NCBI RefSeq assembly: GCF_023150235.1
Contig: NZ_JAKLLH010000012.1
Span: forward strand, 62,001-126,000
Reading direction: 5' to 3'
DNA length: 64,000 nt
Source: Azonexus sp.
Lineage (GTDB): Bacteria > Pseudomonadota > Gammaproteobacteria > Burkholderiales > Rhodocyclaceae
Positions 826 to 9,580 of the stretch are shown here, in pieces. A program made the position numbers and the translations under genes. The notes beneath the pieces were generated by a model. It did not search any database. It was not told the origin of the DNA and saw only the letters and a list, made by a program, of their open reading frames with translations. Position 1 is the stretch's first letter. Each line of letters opens with the position of its first letter.

Positions 826-3186
826 TCAGGCGGCCTTGCGGCACTCGGCCGGTTTGTTGGCGGTGGCGACGTTGTAGTCGAAGGGGAAATCATCGACCTG
901 GACCACGATGTCGCGCAAATGGTTGCGGCGGCGCATCACTTCGTACTCGGCGGCGGTGATCACCCCGCACTCGGCCGCCACCATCGCGATGTCGCGAACG
1001 TTGGCGCGCGGATTGGCGTCGAAGCGCCCGGCCTTCTCGGCTTCGCGGATCTTGGCTTCGATTGCTTCGGCTTCGAGAGTCGCCCGCAAGGCGAGTTCGA
1101 TGGCACCAACCGGCTCGTTCTCTTCCTGCGGCACGAAACACTCGGCACACAGGCGCTCGCGGGTTGCCGACGGGGCGATCAAGGCCTTGGCGACCTGGTG
1201 ACCGACCTCGTCGGACGGCACCACGTAGGGGTGACCCCAGGGGAAAATCAGGCGATTGACCAGACCGGCGATGGAACGCACCGGGAAGTTGGCGATGACG
1301 CCGTCGAAAGCCTGCTGCGCCTTGTACATCGCGTCCCAGATCGCCCAGTGGGCGAGCGCGGCGTCTTCCTGCTTGCGACCGTCGGCTTCGTAGCGCTTGA
1401 GCGTGCAGGAGATCAAATACATCTGGGCGAGGATGTCGCCGAGGCGGGCCGACAGCTTTTCGCGGCGCTTGACGCTGCCGCCGAGGACCAACAGCGAAAC
1501 GTCGGAGAGGAAGGCAAAAGCCGCCGAGAAACGGGTCAGCTGCTGGTAGTAACGCTTCATTTCCGGCGCCACGTCGGCATTGACGCCAACGAAGTGCGAG
1601 CCGGTCAGGCCCAGGCCGAGGGCGCGCAGCGCGTTCTTGACAGTGAAGCCGATGTGGCCGAACAAGGCCTTGTCGAAATCGACCAGGCCCTTGCCGCTAT
1701 CCGGGTTTTGCGCCGCCTGCATTTCGGCAAGCAGGTAGGGATGGCAGCGGATCGCGCCCTGACCGAAGATGATCAGCGAACGGGTAAGGATGTTGGCGCC
1801 TTCGACGGTGATCGCCACCGGCACCTGCTGGTAGGCACGGCCGAGGAAATTGGAGGGGCCAAGGCAGATGCCCTTGCCGCCGATCACGTCCATGCCGTCA
1901 TTGACCACCTGGCGGGCGCGCTCGGTGACGTGGTACTTGGCGATGGCCGAAACCACCGACGGCTTTTCGCCGAGATCGACCGCGCCGGCGGTCATCTTGC
2001 GCACCGCGTCCATCATGTAGGTATAGGCGCCGATCCGGGTCAGCGCTTCCTCGACCCCTTCGAACTTGCCGACCGCCATCTTGAACTGGCTGCGAACGCG
2101 GGCATAACCGCCCACCGCACGCGCCGTCATCTGCGCCATGCCGGTATTGGACGAGGGCAGCGAGATCGAACGCCCGGCCGCCAGGCACTCCATCAGCATG
2201 CGCCAGCCCTGCCCGGCCATCTTCGGCCCGCCGATGATGAAATCGAGCGGCATGAAGACGTCCTTGCCGCGCGTCGGCCCGTTCATGAACATCGCGTTGA
2301 GCGGGAAATGACGACGGCCGGTATCAACGCCCGGATGGTCGTAAGGCACCAGCGCACAGGTGATGCCGATATGTTTCTTGTCGCCGAGCAGGCCTTCCGG
2401 GTCATAAAGATGGAAAGCCAAGCCGAACACGGTGCACACCGGGGCCAGCGTGATGTAACGCTTGTCCCAGGAAACCCGCATGCCGATCACTTCCTTGCCC
2501 TGCCACATGCCCTTGCAGACGACGCCGGCATCGGGAATCGACGCCGCATCGGAGCCGGCCCACGGACTGGTCAGCGCAAAGGCCGGGACTTCGATGCCCT
2601 TGGCCAGGCGCGGCAGGTAGTAATCCTTCTGCGCTTCGGTGCCGTAGTGCAGCAGCAGTTCGGCCGGGCCAAGCGAGTTGGGCACCATCACCGACACCGA
2701 CAGCGCGCTGGAGCGGGTCGACAGCTTGGTCACCACCTGCGAATGCGCGTAAGCCGAAAACTCCAGGCCGCCATACTTCTTGGGAATGATCATCCCGAGG
2801 AAGCCCTTGTCCTTGATGTAGCGCCAAGCTTCGTGCGGCAGATCGTAGAGTTCGTGAGTGACCTTCCAGTCATCGACCAGGCGGCAAGCTTCCTCGCACT
2901 CGTGGTCGAGGAAGGACTGCTCGGCGGCGGTCAGCTTCGGCACCGGATAGGACTGCAGCTTCTGCCAGTCCGGCTTGCCGCGAAACAGCTCGCCCTCCCA
3001 CCAGACAGTGCCGGCCTCAAGCGCATCGCGCTCGGTTTCGGACATCTGCGGCAGCACCTTGCGGTAAGCGGCAAAAACCGGACGGGTGATCAGGCTGCGG
3101 CGCAACGGGCGGATGGCGAGCAACAGAAAAACCAAACTCGCCACCCCGGCGCCAATCACCGGCCAACTGGTCAGCGTAAATTCCAT
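826..3186 (-). CDS. fadE: Acyl-CoA dehydrogenase FadE-type, 786 aa
   Basis: First oxidation step of beta-oxidation (acyl-CoA to trans-2-enoyl-CoA, FAD-dependent). Length and sequence match the long FadE/YafH class rather than the 380-aa soluble class: a short hydrophobic N-terminus (about residues 1-30), then the acyl-CoA dehydrogenase core with IPKKYGGLEFS, a LTSPWAGSDAAS block near the flavin/substrate site, and a long C-terminal extension typical of FadE (DUF1974). The ATG at 3186 is preferred to an upstream in-frame ATG at 3216 because CAGGAGA lies 7 bases before it. It is upstream of the thiolase on the same strand. A 24-bp element at 3261-3284, nearly identical to one before the TetR gene at 9542, lies about 75 bases upstream and suggests fatty-acid-responsive repression (inference). 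Confidence 0.93.
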   Translation of the reverse strand: MEFTLTSWPVIGAGVASLVFLLLAIRPLRRSLITRPVFAAYRKVLPQMSETERDALEAGTVWWEGELFRGKPDWQKLQSYPVPKLTAAEQSFLDHECEEACRLVDDWKVTHELYDLPHEAWRYIKDKGFLGMIIPKKYGGLEFSAYAHSQVVTKLSTRSSALSVSVMVPNSLGPAELLLHYGTEAQKDYYLPRLAKGIEVPAFALTSPWAGSDAASIPDAGVVCKGMWQGKEVIGMRVSWDKRYITLAPVCTVFGLAFHLYDPEGLLGDKKHIGITCALVPYDHPGVDTGRRHFPLNAMFMNGPTRGKDVFMPLDFIIGGPKMAGQGWRMLMECLAAGRSISLPSSNTGMAQMTARAVGGYARVRSQFKMAVGKFEGVEEALTRIGAYTYMMDAVRKMTAGAVDLGEKPSVVSAIAKYHVTERARQVVNDGMDVIGGKGICLGPSNFLGRAYQQVPVAITVEGANILTRSLIIFGQGAIRCHPYLLAEMQAAQNPDSGKGLVDFDKALFGHIGFTVKNALRALGLGLTGSHFVGVNADVAPEMKRYYQQLTRFSAAFAFLSDVSLLVLGGSVKRREKLSARLGDILAQMYLISCTLKRYEADGRKQEDAALAHWAIWDAMYKAQQAFDGVIANFPVRSIAGLVNRLIFPWGHPYVVPSDEVGHQVAKALIAPSATRERLCAECFVPQEENEPVGAIELALRATLEAEAIEAKIREAEKAGRFDANPRANVRDIAMVAAECGVITAAEYEVMRRRNHLRDIVVQVDDFPFDYNVATANKPAECRKAA

Positions 3187-3260
3187 GACTTGTCTCCTGG
3201 GGTGTTTTTCGGACATTTGGGGCGTCGACCGTGACCATCACGGATCGCCGCCGCAAGCAA

Positions 3261-3284
3261 TTCATACGTTCGTTTGAATCATAA
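3261..3284 (-). promoter_or_regulatory. Putative fatty-acid regulator (PsrA/FadP-like TetR) operator before fadE
   Basis: This 24-bp stretch matches 9557-9580, in front of the TetR gene, with only three mismatches. The shared part reads CATACGTTYGTTTRAAWCAT. Such a shared sequence before a fadE gene and a PsrA-like regulator is best explained as a common operator. Binding is inferred. Confidence 0.65.
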
Positions 3285-3658
3285 GAACAATGCCGGTTAC
3301 TGGCAAGTGTTTTTCGGTGTTTTTTTGCGGGAGGCGGAAGGGGGGTGAAGCGGTTAGTTGCTGCTTTGCCGGGAAAGGCGCTGTTCGGGCGGTGATGGCT
3401 GGAGCGGTAGCCACTTCAACTTCAGCTGCTTGAGGTGGCCGCCCTACTGTTGGGCAAAATGCGCTGTAAAATTGCTTGGCATGCTGGTTTATTCATTCGA
3501 AATGCAGCAAAATTTAGCTCTTCAACAACGAAGGGGGTAGATGTGCAGAATACGTCTTGGGATATCGCAGGAACCCAACTCCGCGTAGCGGCTTGGTTCA
3601 ACGCTGCATTCCAAACGCCCCGTGCAAAAAGCTGTACAGCCCCTTTTCCAAGCGAAGA

Positions 3659-3676
3659 AAATCGTGGTCTGTCCCT
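3659..3676 (+). repeat. 18-base RAYT-associated repeat, copy 1
   Basis: AAATCGTGGTCTGTCCCT. The same 18-mer, direct or reversed, occurs at 7028-7045, 7835-7852, 8601-8618 and, degenerate, 8680-8697. This copy is remote from the transposase gene at 7085. Confidence 0.8.
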
Positions 3677-3911
3677 ATTATTTCTTGCCTTCTCTCCAGA
3701 AGATGCATTCGAGGATGCAGGGAGTGTCTTGCGACGAAAGATGGAAAAAATGACAAAAACCTAATCAGGAACCCGTTCTCTATGCACCGGCAGCAAAAAA
3801 TCGCTTGAAAACAGCGAATGGTGCGGCGCAGCATCCTTCTCTACAGCGTTTTGCAAGAAGCTCGTCTGTATTGGCAACAAGCCCAGCCGAATCAAAATTG
3901 AGCCGGTCGAG

Positions 3912-4553
3912 TTACCAGCGTAACAACCGACTGCCCAGAAATGCGCCGACAATTGCGGGAACCAATATCCCCAAGACATACCAGACCGCAAGAAACGGCG
4001 CTTCCATTTCGGGGCAGTGGATGCAGTAGACCAGGGTAGCGACTGCGCCGGAAAGGAATCCTGCGCCCGCCCCGGCGAGAGCGGGCCGGGGCGGTGCAGC
4101 AGCTCGCAATGCCCACAGCAATCCGGCTAGAAGCGGCACGGAAAGCATTGCGATAAGCCAGGGACAGACCATCCAGGTATGACCCAGAACAAGATCCAAA
4201 CGCTGCTCTGTCGTAGTGTTGCTCAGTACGAACAATGCGAGTGCCCAAAGGGCGATAAATGGCGATGCTGCCCACCATGCGGCAGTACCAATTGGCATCC
4301 CCGGGCGTGCCAAACGCCGCAGCAGCATCAATCCGGCCAAGACGAGCGCAGCGGCAAATACCACCTTGATCCAATACATCGGCAGCAGCAGCGCCTGTGA
4401 GAGGTCGGCTCGCGCGCCCAGTAATGAGACCATCAGAATCAGGGCTAATGCGACGCCCCAGCCAAGCGCGGTTGCAACACGTCGCTCGATGACGCGGTTA
4501 TCCACAGCACCGGCGCCGGTGGCCAGCAGAACAGTCAATTCTTCGGTTTTCAT
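3912..4553 (-). CDS. nrsF: NrsF-type anti-sigma factor (DUF1109), 213 aa
   Basis: Integral membrane anti-sigma factor predicted to hold the adjacent ECF sigma factor at the inner membrane until an oxidative or heavy-metal signal is sensed. The sequence shows about six hydrophobic segments after a short cytoplasmic N-terminus, and the DUF1109/NrsF look, including a Cys-containing loop (YCIHCPEME, near residue 185) that could serve in redox sensing. ATG at 4553 overlaps the sigma-factor stop (ATGA), indicating translational coupling; a GTG at 4562 is the alternative. In Caulobacter and Azospira the NrsF-SigF pair controls oxidative or heavy-metal stress genes. The targets here are probably the divergent methionine-rich peptide and msr genes. 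Confidence 0.85.
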   Translation of the reverse strand: MKTEELTVLLATGAGAVDNRVIERRVATALGWGVALALILMVSLLGARADLSQALLLPMYWIKVVFAAALVLAGLMLLRRLARPGMPIGTAAWWAASPFIALWALALFVLSNTTTEQRLDLVLGHTWMVCPWLIAMLSVPLLAGLLWALRAAAPPRPALAGAGAGFLSGAVATLVYCIHCPEMEAPFLAVWYVLGILVPAIVGAFLGSRLLRW

Positions 4554-5131
4554 TGTGTACACCTGATCAGTTTTGCCAATAGCTTCAATCCGCGATGGAT
4601 ACCCACCTTCACGGCAGATTCCGACATGCCGCTGGCAGCAGCAGCCTCCGCTATCGAATTGCCGTTCAGCTTGACATGCAGGATGGGTAAGCGATACCGA
4701 TCCGGCAGCCGTGCCAGAAGGGATTGAATGTCGATTCGTGCTTCCGTAGCCTCATTGTCGGTAAAGGCAAACGCCTCGTCATCGTCATCCAGAGATTCGG
4801 TCAGTAATTCCCGGCTGCCGTGTGCGCGCCACCGGTCGACCAATTTATAGCTGGCTATCGCGTGCATCCACACCGTCAGCGGGAGTTGCGAGTCGTAGGT
4901 GTGGCGCTGAATGTGTACCGCCAAGAGAGTCTCCTGCACCAAGTCTTCGATGTCATTGACCGATTGAGGCAAACGCTTCCGGAAATAGCCGCGCAGATGC
5001 AGCGCGACTTCGTTGAGAAAGACCAGATACTTCTCCTCATTGCCGGCTAACGCTTCCAAAAAAAGATTGCGCCAGCGATCTTCCGCATCCTGCAACAACA
5101 GTCTCTTGTTAGTTCGTTGATCTGTGGGCAT
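4550..5131 (-). CDS. sigF: ECF RNA polymerase sigma factor, SigF-like, up to 193 aa
   Basis: ECF sigma factor with region 2 (LRGYFRKRLPQSVNDIEDLVQETLLAVH, here split: FRKRL then DIEDLVQETLLAVH) and region 4 (LPDRYRLPILHVKL, then SESAVKVGIHRG). Paired with the NrsF anti-sigma through an ATGA overlap. The ATG at 5131 has a moderate GAGGGA site about 9 bases upstream, but a perfect GTAACC-N16-CGAA promoter (5138-5113) overlaps it. RNA from that promoter would start near 5105-5108, inside this frame, so a shorter protein starting at a TTG at 5098 or 5095 is possible; ECF proteins commonly begin shortly before the RWR block seen at about residue 19. Predicted to be autoregulated. Confidence 0.88.
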   Translation of the reverse strand: MPTDQRTNKRLLLQDAEDRWRNLFLEALAGNEEKYLVFLNEVALHLRGYFRKRLPQSVNDIEDLVQETLLAVHIQRHTYDSQLPLTVWMHAIASYKLVDRWRAHGSRELLTESLDDDDEAFAFTDNEATEARIDIQSLLARLPDRYRLPILHVKLNGNSIAEAAAASGMSESAVKVGIHRGLKLLAKLIRCTQ

Positions 5132-5138
5132 TGGTTAC
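5113..5138 (-). promoter_or_regulatory. SigF-type promoter of the sigma-factor gene
   Basis: On the minus strand GTAACC (5138-5133), a 16-base spacer and CGAA (5116-5113). This equals the SigF consensus I recall from Caulobacter, and the same arrangement occurs on the opposite strand at 5193-5218. It overlaps the apparent start codon of the sigma gene. Confidence 0.7.
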
Positions 5139-5192
5139 AGTCCCTCGACACTGTTGCCACTTCGGTGCATAAAAGAATATTTAGTATGTACT

Positions 5193-5218
5193 GTAACCAA
5201 AGAGGGCAGTGAAGCGAA
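5193..5218 (+). promoter_or_regulatory. SigF-type promoter of the methionine-rich peptide/msr operon
   Basis: GTAACC (5193-5198), spacer of exactly 16 bases, CGAA (5215-5218). The predicted RNA would start near 5225 and carry a leader of about 78 bases to the ATG at 5303. Confidence 0.75.
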
Positions 5219-5302
5219 ATAAGCATAGTGCAGATATCCAATGCGCTGCATGTTGCACGGTAGTCCGGCAATTACTTTACCCTTTCAATCAAGGAGTTCG
5301 AT

Positions 5303-5542
5303 ATGAACAAGTTCGCTGCAACTATTTTCTCCGTAGTCTTTGCTGTTTCCGCAGGCAGCGTCGGCGCTGCTGACGATGCCATGAAGAAGGATGCCATGGC
5401 GAAAGACGGCATGAAAAAGGAAGCCATGGCCAAGGATGGCATGATGAAGGACGACATGAAAAAAGACGACATGATGAAGAAAGACATGCCGAAAAAGGAC
5501 ATGGCCAAGGACGGCATGATGAAGGACGACATGAAGAAATAA
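5303..5542 (+). CDS. mrpX: Periplasmic methionine-rich peptide (MrpX-like), 79 aa
   Basis: Small secreted protein: signal peptide of about 22 residues (basic NK start, hydrophobic stretch, VGA-A cleavage region) followed by a mature part of about 56 residues made almost only of Met, Lys, Asp, Ala and Gly. Fourteen of those 56 residues are Met, and Met occurs at every fifth position from residue 27 to 77, with extra Met at 48, 58 and 73. AAGGAG stands 6 bases before the ATG. In Azospira suillum a Met-rich periplasmic peptide (MrpX) scavenges hypochlorite through Met oxidation and is recycled by a methionine sulfoxide reductase. The neighbouring SigF/NrsF genes and the msr gene make the same role likely here. 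The homology is judged from composition and context, because low-complexity sequence cannot be aligned reliably. Confidence 0.8.
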   Translation: MNKFAATIFSVVFAVSAGSVGAADDAMKKDAMAKDGMKKEAMAKDGMMKDDMKKDDMMKKDMPKKDMAKDGMMKDDMKK

Positions 5543-5550
5543 TGCGGCCA

Positions 5551-5580
5551 TGCCGGGGGGGGTAAAACAGTCCCCCGGCA
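5551..5580 (+). terminator. Intercistronic hairpin between mrpX and msrAB
   Basis: Perfect 9-bp stem TGCCGGGGG (5551-5559) with CCCCCGGCA (5572-5580) and a 12-base loop, 8 bases after the mrpX stop. No T-run follows, so it is more likely an RNA-stabilising or attenuating structure that lets mrpX be made in excess over msrAB than a full terminator. Confidence 0.6.
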
Positions 5581-5606
5581 CATGTCTGAATTGTTCAGGA
5601 GAAACC

Positions 5607-6890
5607 GTGAATACTTGCCGAAATCTTTTGTCCGCCTGGCTTGCCGGGCTGGTGCTGTGCATGATCTCAGTCCCGTCCGCCGCCGACAGCATCGTCCTCG
5701 GCATGGGTTGTTTCTGGGGCGCGGAAAAGCGCATGGGCGAACTGGCCGGCGTCACCGATGTCGAAAGCGGCTATGCCAACGGCGACATCGCCGGCAATTA
5801 CGAGGCGGTGCTGGCACATGAAAACGCCGTGAAGCGCGGCAAGACCACCCAGCGCAACCACGCCGAAGTCGTCAAGGTGACTTTCGATCCGGCCAAGGTC
5901 AGCCTCGAAACCGTGCTGGCCCGCTTCTGGGAAAGCCACAACCCGACGCAAGGCGACCGCCAGGGCAACGATGTCGGCACCAATTACCGTAGCGCGATCT
6001 ACACTAATAACGATGCGCAACTGGCCGTCGCCCTGAAGACGCGCGATGTTTACCAAGCCGCGCTGACGAAGGCCGGTTACCAGAAAATCACGACCGACAT
6101 CGCGCCGCTGAAGAAATACTATGCCGCCGAAACCTACCATCAGGACTATCTGAAGAAGAATCCCAACGGCTACTGCGGCCTTGGCGGTACCGGCGTCAAG
6201 TTCCCCGGTTCGGTTGCAGCCAAGGCAGACACGCCAGTGGATAGCAAGCCGCTGGATGCCAACTTATTGAACTTGAAGCGGCAACTGATCGTCTTCGAGG
6301 CGACCGACTGCGCCTACTGCAAGCAGTTCAAGGCCGAGGTACTCGACAAGTGGAAGTCGGAAGTCCCGATTGCGCGCACCTACAACACCGCACCGCCGGC
6401 CGGCTGGAAACTCGAAAAGGCCTTGTTCGCCACGCCGACCATCGTGCTGTTCGAGAACGGCAAGGAAGTCTCACGCTACACCGGCTACAACGGCGAGCAG
6501 CCGCGCTTCTGGAAATGGCTGGGCTTTCACCTGCTGACACCGGAGCAGCAGAAAATCGCCTTCGAGCAGGGCACCGAACGCCCCGGCACCGGCTCGCATC
6601 TCGATGAAAAGCGTCCCGGCACCTTCGTCGATCCGATCACCGGCGCGGCCTTGTTCCGCAGCGATACCAAGTTCGACAGCGGCACCGGCTGGCCAAGCTT
6701 TTTCAACCCGCAACCCGGTGCGCTGACCGAGCATGTGGATACCGCCCACGGCATGCGCCGGGTCGAAGTCCGCAGCGCCAGTTCCGGCATCCACCTCGGC
6801 CACGTCTTCGACGACGGCCCGAAACCTAGCGGCAAGCGCTATTGCATCAACGGTAACGTGTTGAAGTTCGTGCCGGACCCTGGAAAATGA
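5607..6890 (+). CDS. msrAB: Secreted MsrA-thioredoxin-MsrB fusion, 427 aa
   Basis: Periplasmic methionine sulfoxide reductase reducing both Met-S- and Met-R-oxide. GTG at 5607 is chosen: AGGAGA lies 4 bases before it and the protein then opens with a signal peptide (NTCRNLLSAWLAGLVL, cleavage after PSAA). MsrA domain first (GMGCFWG, catalytic Cys in GCFWG), then a thioredoxin-like domain with CAYC in place of CxPC, then MsrB (GTGWPSF, HLGHVFDDGP, catalytic Cys in RYCINGN). The zinc-binding CxxC pairs of many MsrB proteins are absent. Neisseria PilB has the order Trx-MsrA-MsrB; here Trx sits in the middle. It follows mrpX in the putative SigF operon, so its likely substrate is the oxidised Met-rich peptide (inference). 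Confidence 0.88.
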   Translation: MNTCRNLLSAWLAGLVLCMISVPSAADSIVLGMGCFWGAEKRMGELAGVTDVESGYANGDIAGNYEAVLAHENAVKRGKTTQRNHAEVVKVTFDPAKVSLETVLARFWESHNPTQGDRQGNDVGTNYRSAIYTNNDAQLAVALKTRDVYQAALTKAGYQKITTDIAPLKKYYAAETYHQDYLKKNPNGYCGLGGTGVKFPGSVAAKADTPVDSKPLDANLLNLKRQLIVFEATDCAYCKQFKAEVLDKWKSEVPIARTYNTAPPAGWKLEKALFATPTIVLFENGKEVSRYTGYNGEQPRFWKWLGFHLLTPEQQKIAFEQGTERPGTGSHLDEKRPGTFVDPITGAALFRSDTKFDSGTGWPSFFNPQPGALTEHVDTAHGMRRVEVRSASSGIHLGHVFDDGPKPSGKRYCINGNVLKFVPDPGK

Positions 6891-7027
6891 CATGGTTGCC
6901 CGGCTTCAACCTATTTTCGCCTGCGGGGCAATCGCCGACGATATTTTTGTCATAGAAGACTTTTCGAATGACTGTTGTGCTTTGGCTACCCGCCTTTGAA
7001 TCCCAAAAAAAAACACAAAAAAAAACA

Positions 7028-7045
7028 GGGGACAGACCACGATTT
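7028..7045 (-). repeat. 18-base RAYT-associated repeat, copy 2 (inverted, before the transposase)
   Basis: GGGGACAGACCACGATTT, reverse complement of the copy at 7835-7852 except for the last base. It lies 40 bases before the transposase gene, so the gene is bracketed by inverted copies. Confidence 0.85.
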
Positions 7046-7084
7046 CCTGCTAATCTCAAGCACATCTGACCGCCGGAGACCGCC

Positions 7085-7798
7085 ATGCCCCGCCGCCCGC
7101 GCCTGACCCTGCCGAACGTGCCACTGCACCTCATCCAGCGCGGCAACAACCGGCAAGCCTGCTTCGTTGCTGCCGAAGACTACCGTGGCTATCTCGACTG
7201 GCTCGGCGAATACTCCGGCAAGACCGGGTGCCGGATACACGCCTACGTCCTCATGACCAACCATGTCCATCTGCTGGTCAGCGCCGAGCGGGCCGGGGCG
7301 CCCGGCGAGATGATGAAAGCCCTCGGCCAGCGCTACGTCCAATATTTCAACAAGACCTACCGCCGCAGCGGCACGCTGTGGGAAGGCCGCTACCGCTCCT
7401 GCCCCACCCAAACCGAAACCTACCTGCTGGCTTGCCAGCGTTACATCGAACTCAACCCGGTACGGGCCGCGATGGTCGAGCATCCAGCCGACTACCGCTG
7501 GAGCAGTTACCGCGCCAATGCGCAGGGCGAGGCCAATCCACTCATCTGCCCGCACGAGGTGTATCAGGCACTCGGAAGCGACCCGTCAAGCCGACAAAAC
7601 GCGTATCGGGAACTCTTCCGCTACGAGCTTGAGCCGGGTATGGTCGATCACATACGGCAAGCCACCAACGGCAACTACGCACTTGGCAGCGCCCTCTTCG
7701 GTGAGCAGATTGCGGCTGCGCTCAGTCAGAGGGCGCTACCGGGAAAGGCAGGGAGGCCGAGAAAGATGCCGGAACCGGAAAGTGGCGGGTTGTTCTGA
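7085..7798 (+). CDS. REP-associated tyrosine transposase (RAYT, Y1_Tnp family), 237 aa
   Basis: Single-strand DNA endonuclease/transposase of the IS200-like Y1 family, domesticated in many genomes where it acts on short REP-type repeats. The opening MPRRPRLTLPNVPLHLIQRGNN, split here as LPNVPLHLIQRGNN, is typical of RAYTs; the HUH motif is seen in TNHVHLLV (about residues 58-65), and a candidate catalytic Tyr in QRYVQYFNKTYRR, followed by GTLWEGRYRS. A GGAG site precedes the ATG. It is flanked by inverted copies of an 18-base repeat (7028-7045 and 7835-7852), with further copies at 3659 and 8601, as expected for a RAYT and its repeats. No transposon ends or target duplication are seen. Confidence 0.88.
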   Translation: MPRRPRLTLPNVPLHLIQRGNNRQACFVAAEDYRGYLDWLGEYSGKTGCRIHAYVLMTNHVHLLVSAERAGAPGEMMKALGQRYVQYFNKTYRRSGTLWEGRYRSCPTQTETYLLACQRYIELNPVRAAMVEHPADYRWSSYRANAQGEANPLICPHEVYQALGSDPSSRQNAYRELFRYELEPGMVDHIRQATNGNYALGSALFGEQIAAALSQRALPGKAGRPRKMPEPESGGLF

Positions 7799-7834
7799 AA
7801 AATCGGCACAGGCGGGACGGCGATGTGCAGAGCT

Positions 7835-7852
7835 AAATCGTGGTCTGTCCCT
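7835..7852 (+). repeat. 18-base RAYT-associated repeat, copy 3 (after the transposase)
   Basis: AAATCGTGGTCTGTCCCT, identical to copy 1 and inverted relative to copy 2. It lies 36 bases after the transposase stop codon. Confidence 0.85.
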
Positions 7853-7930
7853 ATTTATTTTGCTATTTATTTCCGCCTTCGGCACAGCCATGGCTTTGCG
7901 AGTGCTAGCACCATTTGCTATCATTGAGCC

Positions 7931-8185
7931 ATGAACGCCAAACACCGCAAGACGCTTGTGGCTATTTCCTCCCGCCCGACATCAGCATCCATTGTGTTCG
8001 CTGACATCGAGGCGCTTATCAAAGCACTGGGCGGTTCGATCTCAGAGCGTGAAGGTTCGCGCGTGAAGATAGAACTCAAAGGCGAACAGTGGCGCTGCCA
8101 TCGGCCACATCCGGGAAAGGAAGCCAAGCGTTATCAGGTAGAGGAGGCGCGGGAATTGTTGGAACGTGTAGGAGTGCTGCCATGA
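7931..8185 (+). CDS. hicA: HicA-type mRNA interferase toxin, 84 aa
   Basis: Toxin of a type II HicAB module: a small double-stranded-RNA-binding-like protein that cleaves mRNA when freed. The family signature is visible: I-x-x-L-G-G at residues 28-36 and the catalytic His in WRCHRPHPGK (about residues 54-63), followed by a short helical tail (YQVEEARELLERVGV). It is somewhat longer than usual because of an N-terminal extension of about 20 residues; translation could start later. ATGA overlap with hicB at 8182 couples their translation. It sits between two copies of the RAYT-associated repeat. Confidence 0.82.
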   Translation: MNAKHRKTLVAISSRPTSASIVFADIEALIKALGGSISEREGSRVKIELKGEQWRCHRPHPGKEAKRYQVEEARELLERVGVLP

Positions 8186-8520
8186 ACACCATGACGTATA
8201 AAGGCTATACCGCTCGCGTTGAGTATGACGAAAGAGACAATGTTTTTGTTGGGCGTATTCTCGGCATTCGCAGCATCATCAGTTTTCATGGCGAGACGGT
8301 TGCCGAATTGAAGGCCGCTTTTGAGCATGCGGTCAAAGACTATCTCGCCGACTGTAAGCAAGAAGGTATACATCCCGAGAAGCCTGCTTCTGGCAAGCTG
8401 TTGTTGCGCGTACCGCCAGAAATTCACGGTCGTGCTCTCGTTGCCGCGCAGGCTGCGGGCAAGAGCCTCAACCAATGGGCTACCGAGGTTTTACAGCACG
8501 CAGTTCAACCAGGTGGCTAA
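8182..8520 (+). CDS. hicB: HicB-type antitoxin, 112 aa
   Basis: Antitoxin partner of HicA. The N-terminal half has the partially degraded RNase H-like HicB fold signature (YKGYTARVEYDERDNVFVG, then GRILGIRSIISFHGETVAEL), and the C-terminal part is a ribbon-helix-helix-like DNA-binding tail (SGKLLLRVPPEIH, then LNQWATEVL) that should repress the operon. The start overlaps the hicA stop (ATGA), and an AGGAG site lies inside the hicA end. Well conserved and complete. Confidence 0.85.
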   Translation: MNTMTYKGYTARVEYDERDNVFVGRILGIRSIISFHGETVAELKAAFEHAVKDYLADCKQEGIHPEKPASGKLLLRVPPEIHGRALVAAQAAGKSLNQWATEVLQHAVQPGG

Positions 8521-8600
8521 TTCTACTTTGTCAGATTCCCCCCACCCCATCCGAAGCCGTCATGCGAGCATGCAAGCAATATGCAAGCAAAGAAGCAATA

Positions 8601-8618
8601 GGGGACAGACCACGATTT
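8601..8618 (-). repeat. 18-base RAYT-associated repeat, copy 4
   Basis: GGGGACAGACCACGATTT, identical to copy 2. It forms an inverted pair with the degenerate copy at 8680-8697 (three mismatches), about 60 bases away, resembling a REP doublet. Confidence 0.8.
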
Positions 8619-8679
8619 ATTTTGAATACCCCCTGATCTTGCGGTCGACTGTAAGGATGCGGAATTTTCCGGGCGTAGA

Positions 8680-8697
8680 AAATCGTGCGCTGCCCCC
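8680..8697 (+). repeat. Degenerate RAYT-associated repeat, copy 5
   Basis: AAATCGTGCGCTGCCCCC, three mismatches to the other copies, inverted relative to the copy at 8601. Confidence 0.5.
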
Positions 8698-8759
8698 ATT
8701 ATGCTGATTTCCCCCGCTCAGCCCCAATGCGGCCGGTCGGGTAACACAGCGTAATTCCA

Positions 8760-8795
8760 TAAAAAATCCCCGCCCGGCTTGCCACTGGCGGGGAT
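8760..8795 (-). terminator. Rho-independent terminator of the TetR gene
   Basis: Stem ATCCCCGCC (8766-8774) with GGCGGGGAT (8787-8795); read on the minus strand it is followed by a T-run (8760-8766). Confidence 0.85.
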
Positions 8796-8846
8796 CGCTT
8801 CAGCCGCACCTGGACACTGCCGGCAAGATCTCAAACAGCGGCGGCC

Positions 8847-9542
8847 CTAGATCTGGCCGCCCTCATTGAGCTGCGGCAACGGCGCGCGCAGGCCGCCGAG
8901 GAGGAAGGACATCAGGCGCGGCAGCAGGTGGTCGAGGCGGTCCATCGTTGCCTCGTCCTCGATCTGCCAGTCGGTGACCAGGCGCAGCGCGTCGGTGCCG
9001 GCAATGGCGTAGGAGGTGGCGCCGAGCATGAAGTGGAAGCGCCAGACGATTTCTGCCTTGGGCACGTCGGGCAGCGCCTTGAACAAGGCTTCCTTGTAGC
9101 GTTCGACGACAGTGCGGTATTCCTGCGCGAGGAAGGTGCGGATGAATTCCGACGGTTCGATCAGCGTGCGCCCGAGCAGGCGGAGGAAGGTCATGCCGCC
9201 GCGTGCCTCGTCGTCGGCCATGCGCAGCAGGGTGCCGAAAAAGCCATCGACGATCTGCGACGGCTTGAGCGGCCGCCCGGCGGCCTCGTGTTCGAGTTCG
9301 TCGAGAACCCGCATCCGTTCGTCGTTGAGCCAGTCGAGGCGGCGCCGGAAGACTTCCTGCACCAGCGACTCCTTGGAGCCGAAGTGATAGTTCACCGCCG
9401 CCAGGTTGACCCCGGCCTCGCCGGTGATTTGGCGCATCGAGGTGCCTTCATAGCCGTGGGCCATGAACAGGCGCTCGGCGGCGTCGAGAATGCGTTCGCG
9501 GGTATCCGCATTACGGCTTTCGCCGGCCCGAGGTTCAGCCAC
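8847..9542 (-). CDS. TetR-family regulator, PsrA/FadP-like, 231 aa
   Basis: TetR repressor. The N-terminal helix-turn-helix domain (residues 14-60: RILDAAERLFMAHGYEGTS, then AGVNLAAVNYHFGSKESL) is close to PsrA-type regulators that sense long-chain acyl-CoA; the C-terminal ligand domain has no motif I can assign. The gene stands alone with its own terminator. The 24-bp element 15 bases before its ATG (9557-9580) recurs before fadE (3261-3284), which supports autoregulation and control of the fadE-thiolase operon. The PsrA/FadP assignment is inference from the HTH and this shared site. Confidence 0.85.
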   Translation of the reverse strand: MAEPRAGESRNADTRERILDAAERLFMAHGYEGTSMRQITGEAGVNLAAVNYHFGSKESLVQEVFRRRLDWLNDERMRVLDELEHEAAGRPLKPSQIVDGFFGTLLRMADDEARGGMTFLRLLGRTLIEPSEFIRTFLAQEYRTVVERYKEALFKALPDVPKAEIVWRFHFMLGATSYAIAGTDALRLVTDWQIEDEATMDRLDHLLPRLMSFLLGGLRAPLPQLNEGGQI

Positions 9543-9556
9543 TTCCAGACTCCATG

Positions 9557-9580
9557 TTCATACGTTTGTTTAAAACATAA
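9557..9580 (-). promoter_or_regulatory. Putative autoregulatory operator of the TetR gene
   Basis: 24-bp element with 21 of 24 bases identical to 3261-3284 before fadE. It is AT-rich and located where a repressor would block transcription. Confidence 0.65.

Follow-up and report, generated by a model that had tools for sequence, protein, structure and literature searches.

In Azospira suillum, the response to hypochlorite is reportedly governed by a SigF/NrsF-MrpX-YedY1Z1 system, described by Melnyk in 2015, in which an extracytoplasmic function (ECF) sigma factor with an NrsF anti-sigma factor is said to be combined with a secreted methionine-rich peptide and a periplasmic methionine sulfoxide reductase. 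Here we describe a locus of Azonexus sp. with the same layout but a different reductase: the molybdenum YedY and cytochrome YedZ of Azospira are replaced by a thiol MsrA-thioredoxin-MsrB fusion. The locus lies at positions 3912 to 6890 of a 64,000-nucleotide stretch of contig NZ_JAKLLH010000012.1 (this whole stretch is called the window below), where profile matches bore out all four genes proposed in a preliminary description of this DNA, namely those for the ECF sigma factor, NrsF, a peptide of the MXKDX type and the secreted fusion.

Further relatives are known, which we compare here as far as the accessible parts of the cited sources go. Brucella BcrS-AbcS/BcrXQP likewise pairs a sigma factor, of group ECF16, with an NrsF-family anti-sigma factor, and GTAA...CGAA motifs precede both the sigma factor and the peptide genes (PMC8315932). 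BcrS activates bcrXQP, hypochlorous acid (HOCl) induces it, and BcrX is an MXKDX protein; unlike the window locus, the Brucella system uses an MsrPQ reductase and is of demonstrated HOCl inducibility (PMC8315932). Thiol reductases were reported in two perchlorate islands, of P. militaris MP and D. hydrogenophilus LT-1, as exported msrA and msrB homologues associated with the oxidative-stress genes that such islands carry (sigF/nrsF, yedYZ and mrpX); these appear to be additional to the yedYZ-mrpX set, however, and the accessible text mentions no built-in thioredoxin (PMC4623255). In Bradyrhizobium, the NrsF-family pair EcfF-OsrA also governs methionine sulfoxide reductases, three in number, yet their genes lie elsewhere in the genome, the inducer is H2O2, and the term "methionine-rich" is absent from the accessible text (PMC3420878). 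Haemophilus controls a periplasmic MsrAB through an ECF sigma factor with a 67-residue cytoplasmic anti-sigma factor (PMC7907618). A DUF1109 "RCS-sensing anti-sigma factor" has been noted among genes near chlorite dismutase (PMC9751292). Among the matches listed in the open-licence literature, no report joined SigF-NrsF, an MXKDX peptide and an MsrA-thioredoxin-MsrB fusion. What is already known, then, is SigF-NrsF-MrpX-YedYZ, BcrS-AbcS-BcrXQP and the exported MsrA plus MsrB of some perchlorate islands; what is new is the combination, that is, the lack of YedYZ together with a one-piece MsrA-thioredoxin-MsrB enzyme.

The nrsF gene (3912..4562, minus strand), encoding the membrane anti-sigma factor, matches PF06532 with an E-value of 3.8e-67 (226.5 bits; Pfam cut-off 26.8) and scores 156.1 bits on the NF042994 equivalog profile, whose cut-off is 300. 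The sigF-like open reading frame (4550..5131, minus strand) contains the Sigma70_r2 and r4_2 regions and reaches 250.5 bits on PRK12536, at a cut-off of 250, so that by profile the ECF sigma factor and NrsF-family anti-sigma factor of the SigF-NrsF-MrpX-YedYZ system are both present. NrsF has cysteines at residues 133, 180 and 183, and Cys133 together with Cys180/Cys183 falls approximately at the positions of the conserved redox cysteines shown to be important in OsrA (129/179; PMC3420878) and in Caulobacter NrsF (131/181; PMC3511200).

SigF promoters read GTAACC-N16-CGAA in Caulobacter (PMC3511200) and GTAA-N14-21-CGAA in Brucella (PMC8315932). Two exact copies of the former face outwards from the single intergenic gap between sigF and the peptide gene, one reading into sigF-nrsF (5113..5138, minus strand), the other into the genes for the peptide and the fusion (5193..5218, plus strand). 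For GTAACC-N15-17-CGAA, 0.16 matches would be expected in the 64-kb window and two or more arose in 1 of 100 shuffles; no SigF-type site beyond these two was found in the window. In the whole 3.4-Mb genome the N15-17 pattern occurs 11 times, and the exact N16 form only as the window's pair. With matching promoters before both the peptide gene and sigF, the sigF-nrsF, peptide and fusion genes look like one regulon, which supports the preliminary description. The minus-strand promoter covers the sigF ATG at 5131, and the stop-to-stop sigF frames of three other loci (L163, L166 and L173) also start a few bases inside a SigF-type promoter; the true start is therefore probably further in, with TTG codons near 5098 as candidates.

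The peptide gene (5303..5542, plus strand) encodes 79 residues, with the signal peptide and its cleavage site, here as elsewhere in this work, judged by eye. Fifteen of the residues are methionine; the mature part of 57 residues holds 14 of them, in agreement with the 25% stated previously, next to 17 lysines and 14 aspartates. The homology of this peptide had been put down to composition and context. Its support goes beyond these, since the protein reaches 55.7 bits on the curated profile for pentapeptide MXKDX repeat proteins (TIGR02953), above the family cut-off of 41. A chance methionine-rich frame was rejected on this score. The protein is the sole TIGR02953 match of the genome, and it is this match, together with secretion as judged by eye, that places a secreted methionine-rich peptide next to sigF. 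MXKDX peptides tend to accompany NrsF: at E 0.001 they were found in 14 of 29 genomes with NrsF above its cut-off and in 1 of 22 others (Fisher p 0.0006), in a set of 51 fusion-free genomes of the order that was hand-picked and enriched in NrsF genomes.

The fusion gene (5607..6890, plus strand) follows 64 bp behind the peptide gene. Because AGGAGA precedes it, the GTG at 5607 is most likely the start codon, rather than the ATG at 5550, giving a predicted secreted protein of 427 residues with Pfam domains in the order MsrA, thioredoxin, MsrB (PMSR, 1.7e-49; Thioredoxin_2, 2.9e-9; SelR, 1.2e-40). Two cysteines lie in the predicted signal peptide and exactly five follow (numbering of P0001): C39 and C194 in MsrA, C239 and C242 in the CAYC motif, and C417 in MsrB. 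To place these residues within the family we read 76 fusion loci, of which 68 encode the complete three-domain protein and 8 a partial one (L056, L058, L061 and L157-L161); L019-L021 and L066 were omitted beforehand and L016 before alignment, and the alignment comprises 67 proteins plus that of the window, amounting to 66 different rows of 68 owing to overlap between the named and unnamed collections. C194, C239 and C242 are present in all 68, C39 in 67 (one gap) and C417 in 66, the two gaps belonging to L026 and L052, which are truncated at the edge of a contig. At the usual resolving position of MsrB, which we take to be marked by the motif GCGWPSF, the aligned fusions have threonine in 47 cases, serine in 20 and cysteine in one. 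With the resolving cysteine absent from 67 of the 68, the built-in thioredoxin domain probably reduces the MsrB cysteine directly and would thus serve both catalytic domains. The trait is not peculiar to the fusion, as the separate MsrB proteins of other NrsF loci also have threonine there.

Three domains of the same kinds are found in Neisseria PilB, in which a thioredoxin-like domain, reduced by DsbD, feeds the Msr domains; in PilB, however, thioredoxin comes first, and neither a peptide nor NrsF is mentioned in the accessible text (PMC6210582). The window protein accordingly differs from the PilB equivalog NF010625 (thioredoxin-MsrA-MsrB) in domain order and scores 246.6 bits on it, at a cut-off of 522. 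When a structure model of the fusion was compared with solved structures by Foldseek, the top six matches were MsrA-MsrB fusions, with TMq values of at most 0.34.

Is the fusion a substitute for YedY, as the preliminary description had it? A PF00174 search of the 99.96%-complete genome returned one protein, which is fused to cytochrome c and encoded on a different contig. By this profile the genome has no usual MsrP (YedZ was not searched for genome-wide), which leaves the fusion as the sole reductase of the locus; the genome further encodes one other MsrA, one other MsrB and three DsbD_TM proteins. Since YedY, the defining part, was looked for and is missing, the locus falls outside strict membership of the SigF-NrsF-MrpX-YedYZ system, although, judged by sequence, it looks to work like it. 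The substitution thus stands as far as the missing YedY/MsrP is concerned. Thiol reductases are not unique to the window in such surroundings, given those of the perchlorate islands and six among the 57 NrsF loci surveyed in the order (L200-L203, L206 and L216) that combine a methionine-rich frame with MsrA and/or MsrB and have no YedY-like gene within ~5 kb. MsrP reduces both methionine sulfoxide diastereomers, and the proposed gain of repairing S- plus R-sulfoxides over YedY is hence doubtful.

Together, this suggests a periplasmic oxidant-scavenging cycle controlled by SigF-NrsF, in which the peptide is repaired by the thiol fusion; we assign it a probability of about 0.6. A periplasmic oxidant would alter NrsF, probably via its cysteines, and release SigF, which would then drive transcription of the sigF-nrsF operon and, in the opposite direction, of the peptide and fusion genes. 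The methionine-rich peptide would absorb the oxidant as methionine sulfoxide, to be repaired by the fusion, surely along with other periplasmic proteins, MsrA acting on S- and MsrB on R-sulfoxides. The central thioredoxin domain (CAYC) would reduce the MsrA disulfide C39/C194 and the sulfenic acid of MsrB C417, and would itself be reduced by a DsbD, such that cytoplasmic thiol electrons, rather than the molybdenum and cytochrome b of YedYZ, would drive the cycle. Genes, promoter matches, the lack of a usual MsrP, conserved cysteines and DsbD-type proteins are read directly from the DNA; from them we infer what the signal is, that the peptide acts as a sink, how electrons reach the fusion and what it repairs.

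Several observations weigh against such a cycle, among them the distribution of the fusion itself. Matches at E 1e-60 occur in 8 of 369 genomes of the class (listed matches in G053 and G192 being MsrA-only) and in 27 of 399 of the order, this genome included in both counts, and only this genome among the 399 has both a fusion match and NrsF above cut-off. None of the 26 other fusion-matching genomes of the order (three match over thioredoxin-MsrB only, one is split over two contigs) has NrsF above cut-off or an MXKDX peptide at E 0.001, which counts against the fusion as a dedicated partner of the peptide, and the nearest kin of the window fusion (L022-L025 and others) sit among other genes. 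MsrA-thioredoxin-MsrB is a widespread family of its own, mostly without SigF, NrsF or the peptide, and the enzyme in the window may have a general role in repair and be co-regulated only incidentally. In that event, the genes would share their regulation, with the fusion in general periplasmic repair and the peptide as a separate sink, in the absence of any dedicated peptide-enzyme cycle. We regard this alternative as credible but on the doubtful side: the fusion stands directly behind a methionine-rich peptide and SigF-type promoters in two lineages, and peptide and reductase genes are co-transcribed in Brucella (PMC8315932).

Other points against the cycle concern its signal and its parts. 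No chlorite dismutase was found in a search of the genome, making perchlorate respiration unlikely as a source of hypochlorite, and the related Bradyrhizobium pair responds to peroxide (PMC3420878). In the structure model of the fusion, the domains are confident (pLDDT 85.6) and their mutual arrangement is unreliable (pTM 0.55). A reversed-pattern control for the N15-17 promoter gave 19 genomic matches versus 11 real ones, so that the relaxed pattern by itself is no evidence and it is the N16 pair in one gap that counts. Finally, when the MXKDX peptide is required to exceed the family cut-off, its association with NrsF in the same 51 genomes drops to 8 of 29 versus 1 of 22 (p 0.06).

This weaker association, along with the finding that Caulobacter SigF reacts to chromium and cadmium but shows no response to agents generating reactive oxygen species (ROS) (PMC3511200), weakens the case for the scavenging cycle and strengthens that for a role in metal handling, in which the peptide would be a sponge for copper or a similar metal, SigF-NrsF would sense the metal, and the fusion would mend collateral oxidation. 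The other NrsF loci of the order bear on this alternative. Among the 399 genomes, 56 have NrsF above cut-off, this one included, and 57 neighbourhoods were fetched; in a tally by composition and phmmer, in which neighbourhoods need not be operons and some are truncated at a contig edge, we counted a methionine-rich frame in 20, a YedY-like gene in 9, MsrA in 13, MsrB in 8, a DUF2282/DUF2063/DoxX set in 14, none of these in 19 and the fusion in 0. We take the DUF2282/DUF2063/DoxX clusters to be of bufferin type, and their presence at 14 of the 57 loci speaks for metals. Those 14 loci, on the other hand, lack a methionine-rich frame in the tally, and an MXKDX peptide with MsrPQ is linked to hypochlorite resistance in Brucella (PMC8315932); we therefore rate the metal sponge as unlikely.

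The same neighbourhoods display other reductase complements. Eight of the 57 combine a methionine-rich frame with a YedY-like gene, and six of these eight also have MsrA. Four NrsF-type loci (L203, L206, L205 and L179) encode separate, exported-looking MsrA and MsrB with no YedY-like gene, and a methionine-rich peptide in L203 and L206; they form an unfused counterpart of the window locus. Within the genus, one genome (G728, locus L173) has sigF-nrsF with cytochrome b561, a YedY-like protein, an MXKDX peptide and MsrA; this YedY-like protein scores 75.8 bits on MsrP, below the equivalog cut-off of 207, and its partner is the cytochrome b561. That a yedYZ locus was exchanged in place within the genus was judged unlikely, as the SigF of L173 is only 53% identical to that of the window and as the site between tetR and fadE is without an insert in 20 of the 20 relatives fetched. 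Two nrsF-like genes per sigF locus were seen in L166 (4754-6370) and L168 (4971-6919). NrsF relatives at E 1e-10 are present in 29 plasmid records, in none of which the fusion was found at E 1e-60.

The genome search envisaged in the preliminary description, for sigF-nrsF with a methionine-rich frame and msrAB, did uncover a second case. For 592 relatives, the matches listed comprise 80 named loci, of which we read 45 (L022-L066), along with L014-L021 (stretches of ~2.6-4.2 kb; several loci end at a contig edge), L067-L101 matching the MsrA part only. One of the 45, L052 from the metagenome-assembled genome Azoarcus sp. Md513_bin116, has nrsF, sigF, two promoter matches, a methionine-rich peptide and a fusion cut by the contig end, in the same gene order. 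Its peptide scores 23.9 bits on TIGR02953, under the cut-off of 41, a further point against the proposed cycle. In a SigF-NrsF tree of 34 of 59 loci (the 57, the window and L052; the other 25 had no match to the window NrsF or sigma factor), the window and L052 split off together from the 32 others with SH-aLRT/bootstrap support of 95.9/97 (unrooted). In the fusion tree, by contrast, the window belongs to a six-row set with support of 100/98 that excludes L052, and constraining the two fusions together was rejected with a p-AU of 0.006, a value to be taken only as a guide, as the test covered 24 rows of our choosing, ran under the simpler model setting and concerned a pair picked once the tree had been inspected. 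Since the sigF-nrsF pairs group and the fusions do not, the simplest reading suggests separate recruitment of local fusions behind a related sigF-nrsF-peptide unit; alternatively, the fusion may have been replaced in one of the two lines.

More generally, SigF-NrsF-MXKDX could be a cassette whose reductase is exchangeable. At least two lineages would then have dropped YedYZ and independently recruited a self-contained thiol enzyme, one thioredoxin domain serving a two-cysteine MsrA and a one-cysteine MsrB in a molybdenum-free, DsbD-driven sacrificial-methionine cycle. We consider the odds of this wider proposal to be even. If true, sacrificial-methionine defence is modular, in that sensor and sponge are kept, while repair enzymes drawing on quinone/molybdenum or on thiol/DsbD electrons take each other's place. 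The compact four-gene unit would lend itself to direct tests of peptide turnover by MsrA and MsrB, and the MsrA-thioredoxin-MsrB family, whose MsrB lacks the resolving cysteine, offers a clean test case for one thioredoxin domain shared by two reductases.

The locus is part of a 5.6-kb insertion (3217-8846) between fadE (826-3216) and tetR (8847-9542), the GC content of which is mostly lower than that of its flanks. fadE is present in 35 of 40 genomes of the genus (34 besides this one), and in all 20 relatives for which the upstream stretch was fetched, tetR adjoins fadE directly, with no sigF, nrsF or Msr match. The insertion holds a Y1 (IS200-like) transposase (7085-7798), a HicA/HicB pair (within 7931-8520) and four exact copies of the 17-mer AAATCGTGGTCTGTCCC (3659, 7029, 7835 and 8602), in both orientations, around the transposase and the locus; there is a fifth copy with 3 mismatches, where 0.08 copies would be expected at up to 3 mismatches, and the element looks like a REP-type repeat. 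Such a setting, with its transposase and four repeats, would suit a chance juxtaposition, the fusion having landed beside a sigF-nrsF-peptide unit in a mobile patch with no functional coupling. Yet L052 shows this gene order again with a fusion that belongs to another branch, peptide and fusion genes are separated by the above 64 bp, and no additional SigF-type site occurs in the window, all of which renders mere chance highly improbable.

Some minor observations concern the surroundings of the fusion in this and other genomes. A shared SigF-type promoter close upstream of fusions in general was considered and rejected: the exact GTAACC-N16-CGAA motif occurs in 0 of 68 upstream stretches, and a relaxed pattern matched once (L027) in these stretches versus 0.39 expected. 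In a gammaproteobacterial locus (L028, 3584-4929), a different kind of ECF sigma factor and a 277-residue protein with no Pfam match are encoded directly upstream of the MsrA-thioredoxin-MsrB gene, and a sigma factor gene also lies upstream of the fusion in L049; the fusion may have come under several different ECF sigma factors. In the window, a GC-rich hairpin inferred in the gap between the peptide and fusion genes (5551..5580, plus strand) could be a partial terminator or an mRNA stabiliser and might lower fusion mRNA relative to peptide mRNA; its folding statistic is weak (z-score -1.5; 13 of 200 shuffles fold equally well), and an Rfam scan of 3200-8900 gave 0 matches. At the edge of the insertion, a near copy of a promoter/operator-like stretch, TTATGATTCAAACGAACGTATGAAT, which precedes tetR in relatives (e.g., L249), is found before fadE (window 3255-3290 and ~9550-9580), and fadE may therefore have kept its control by tetR after the insertion split the pair.

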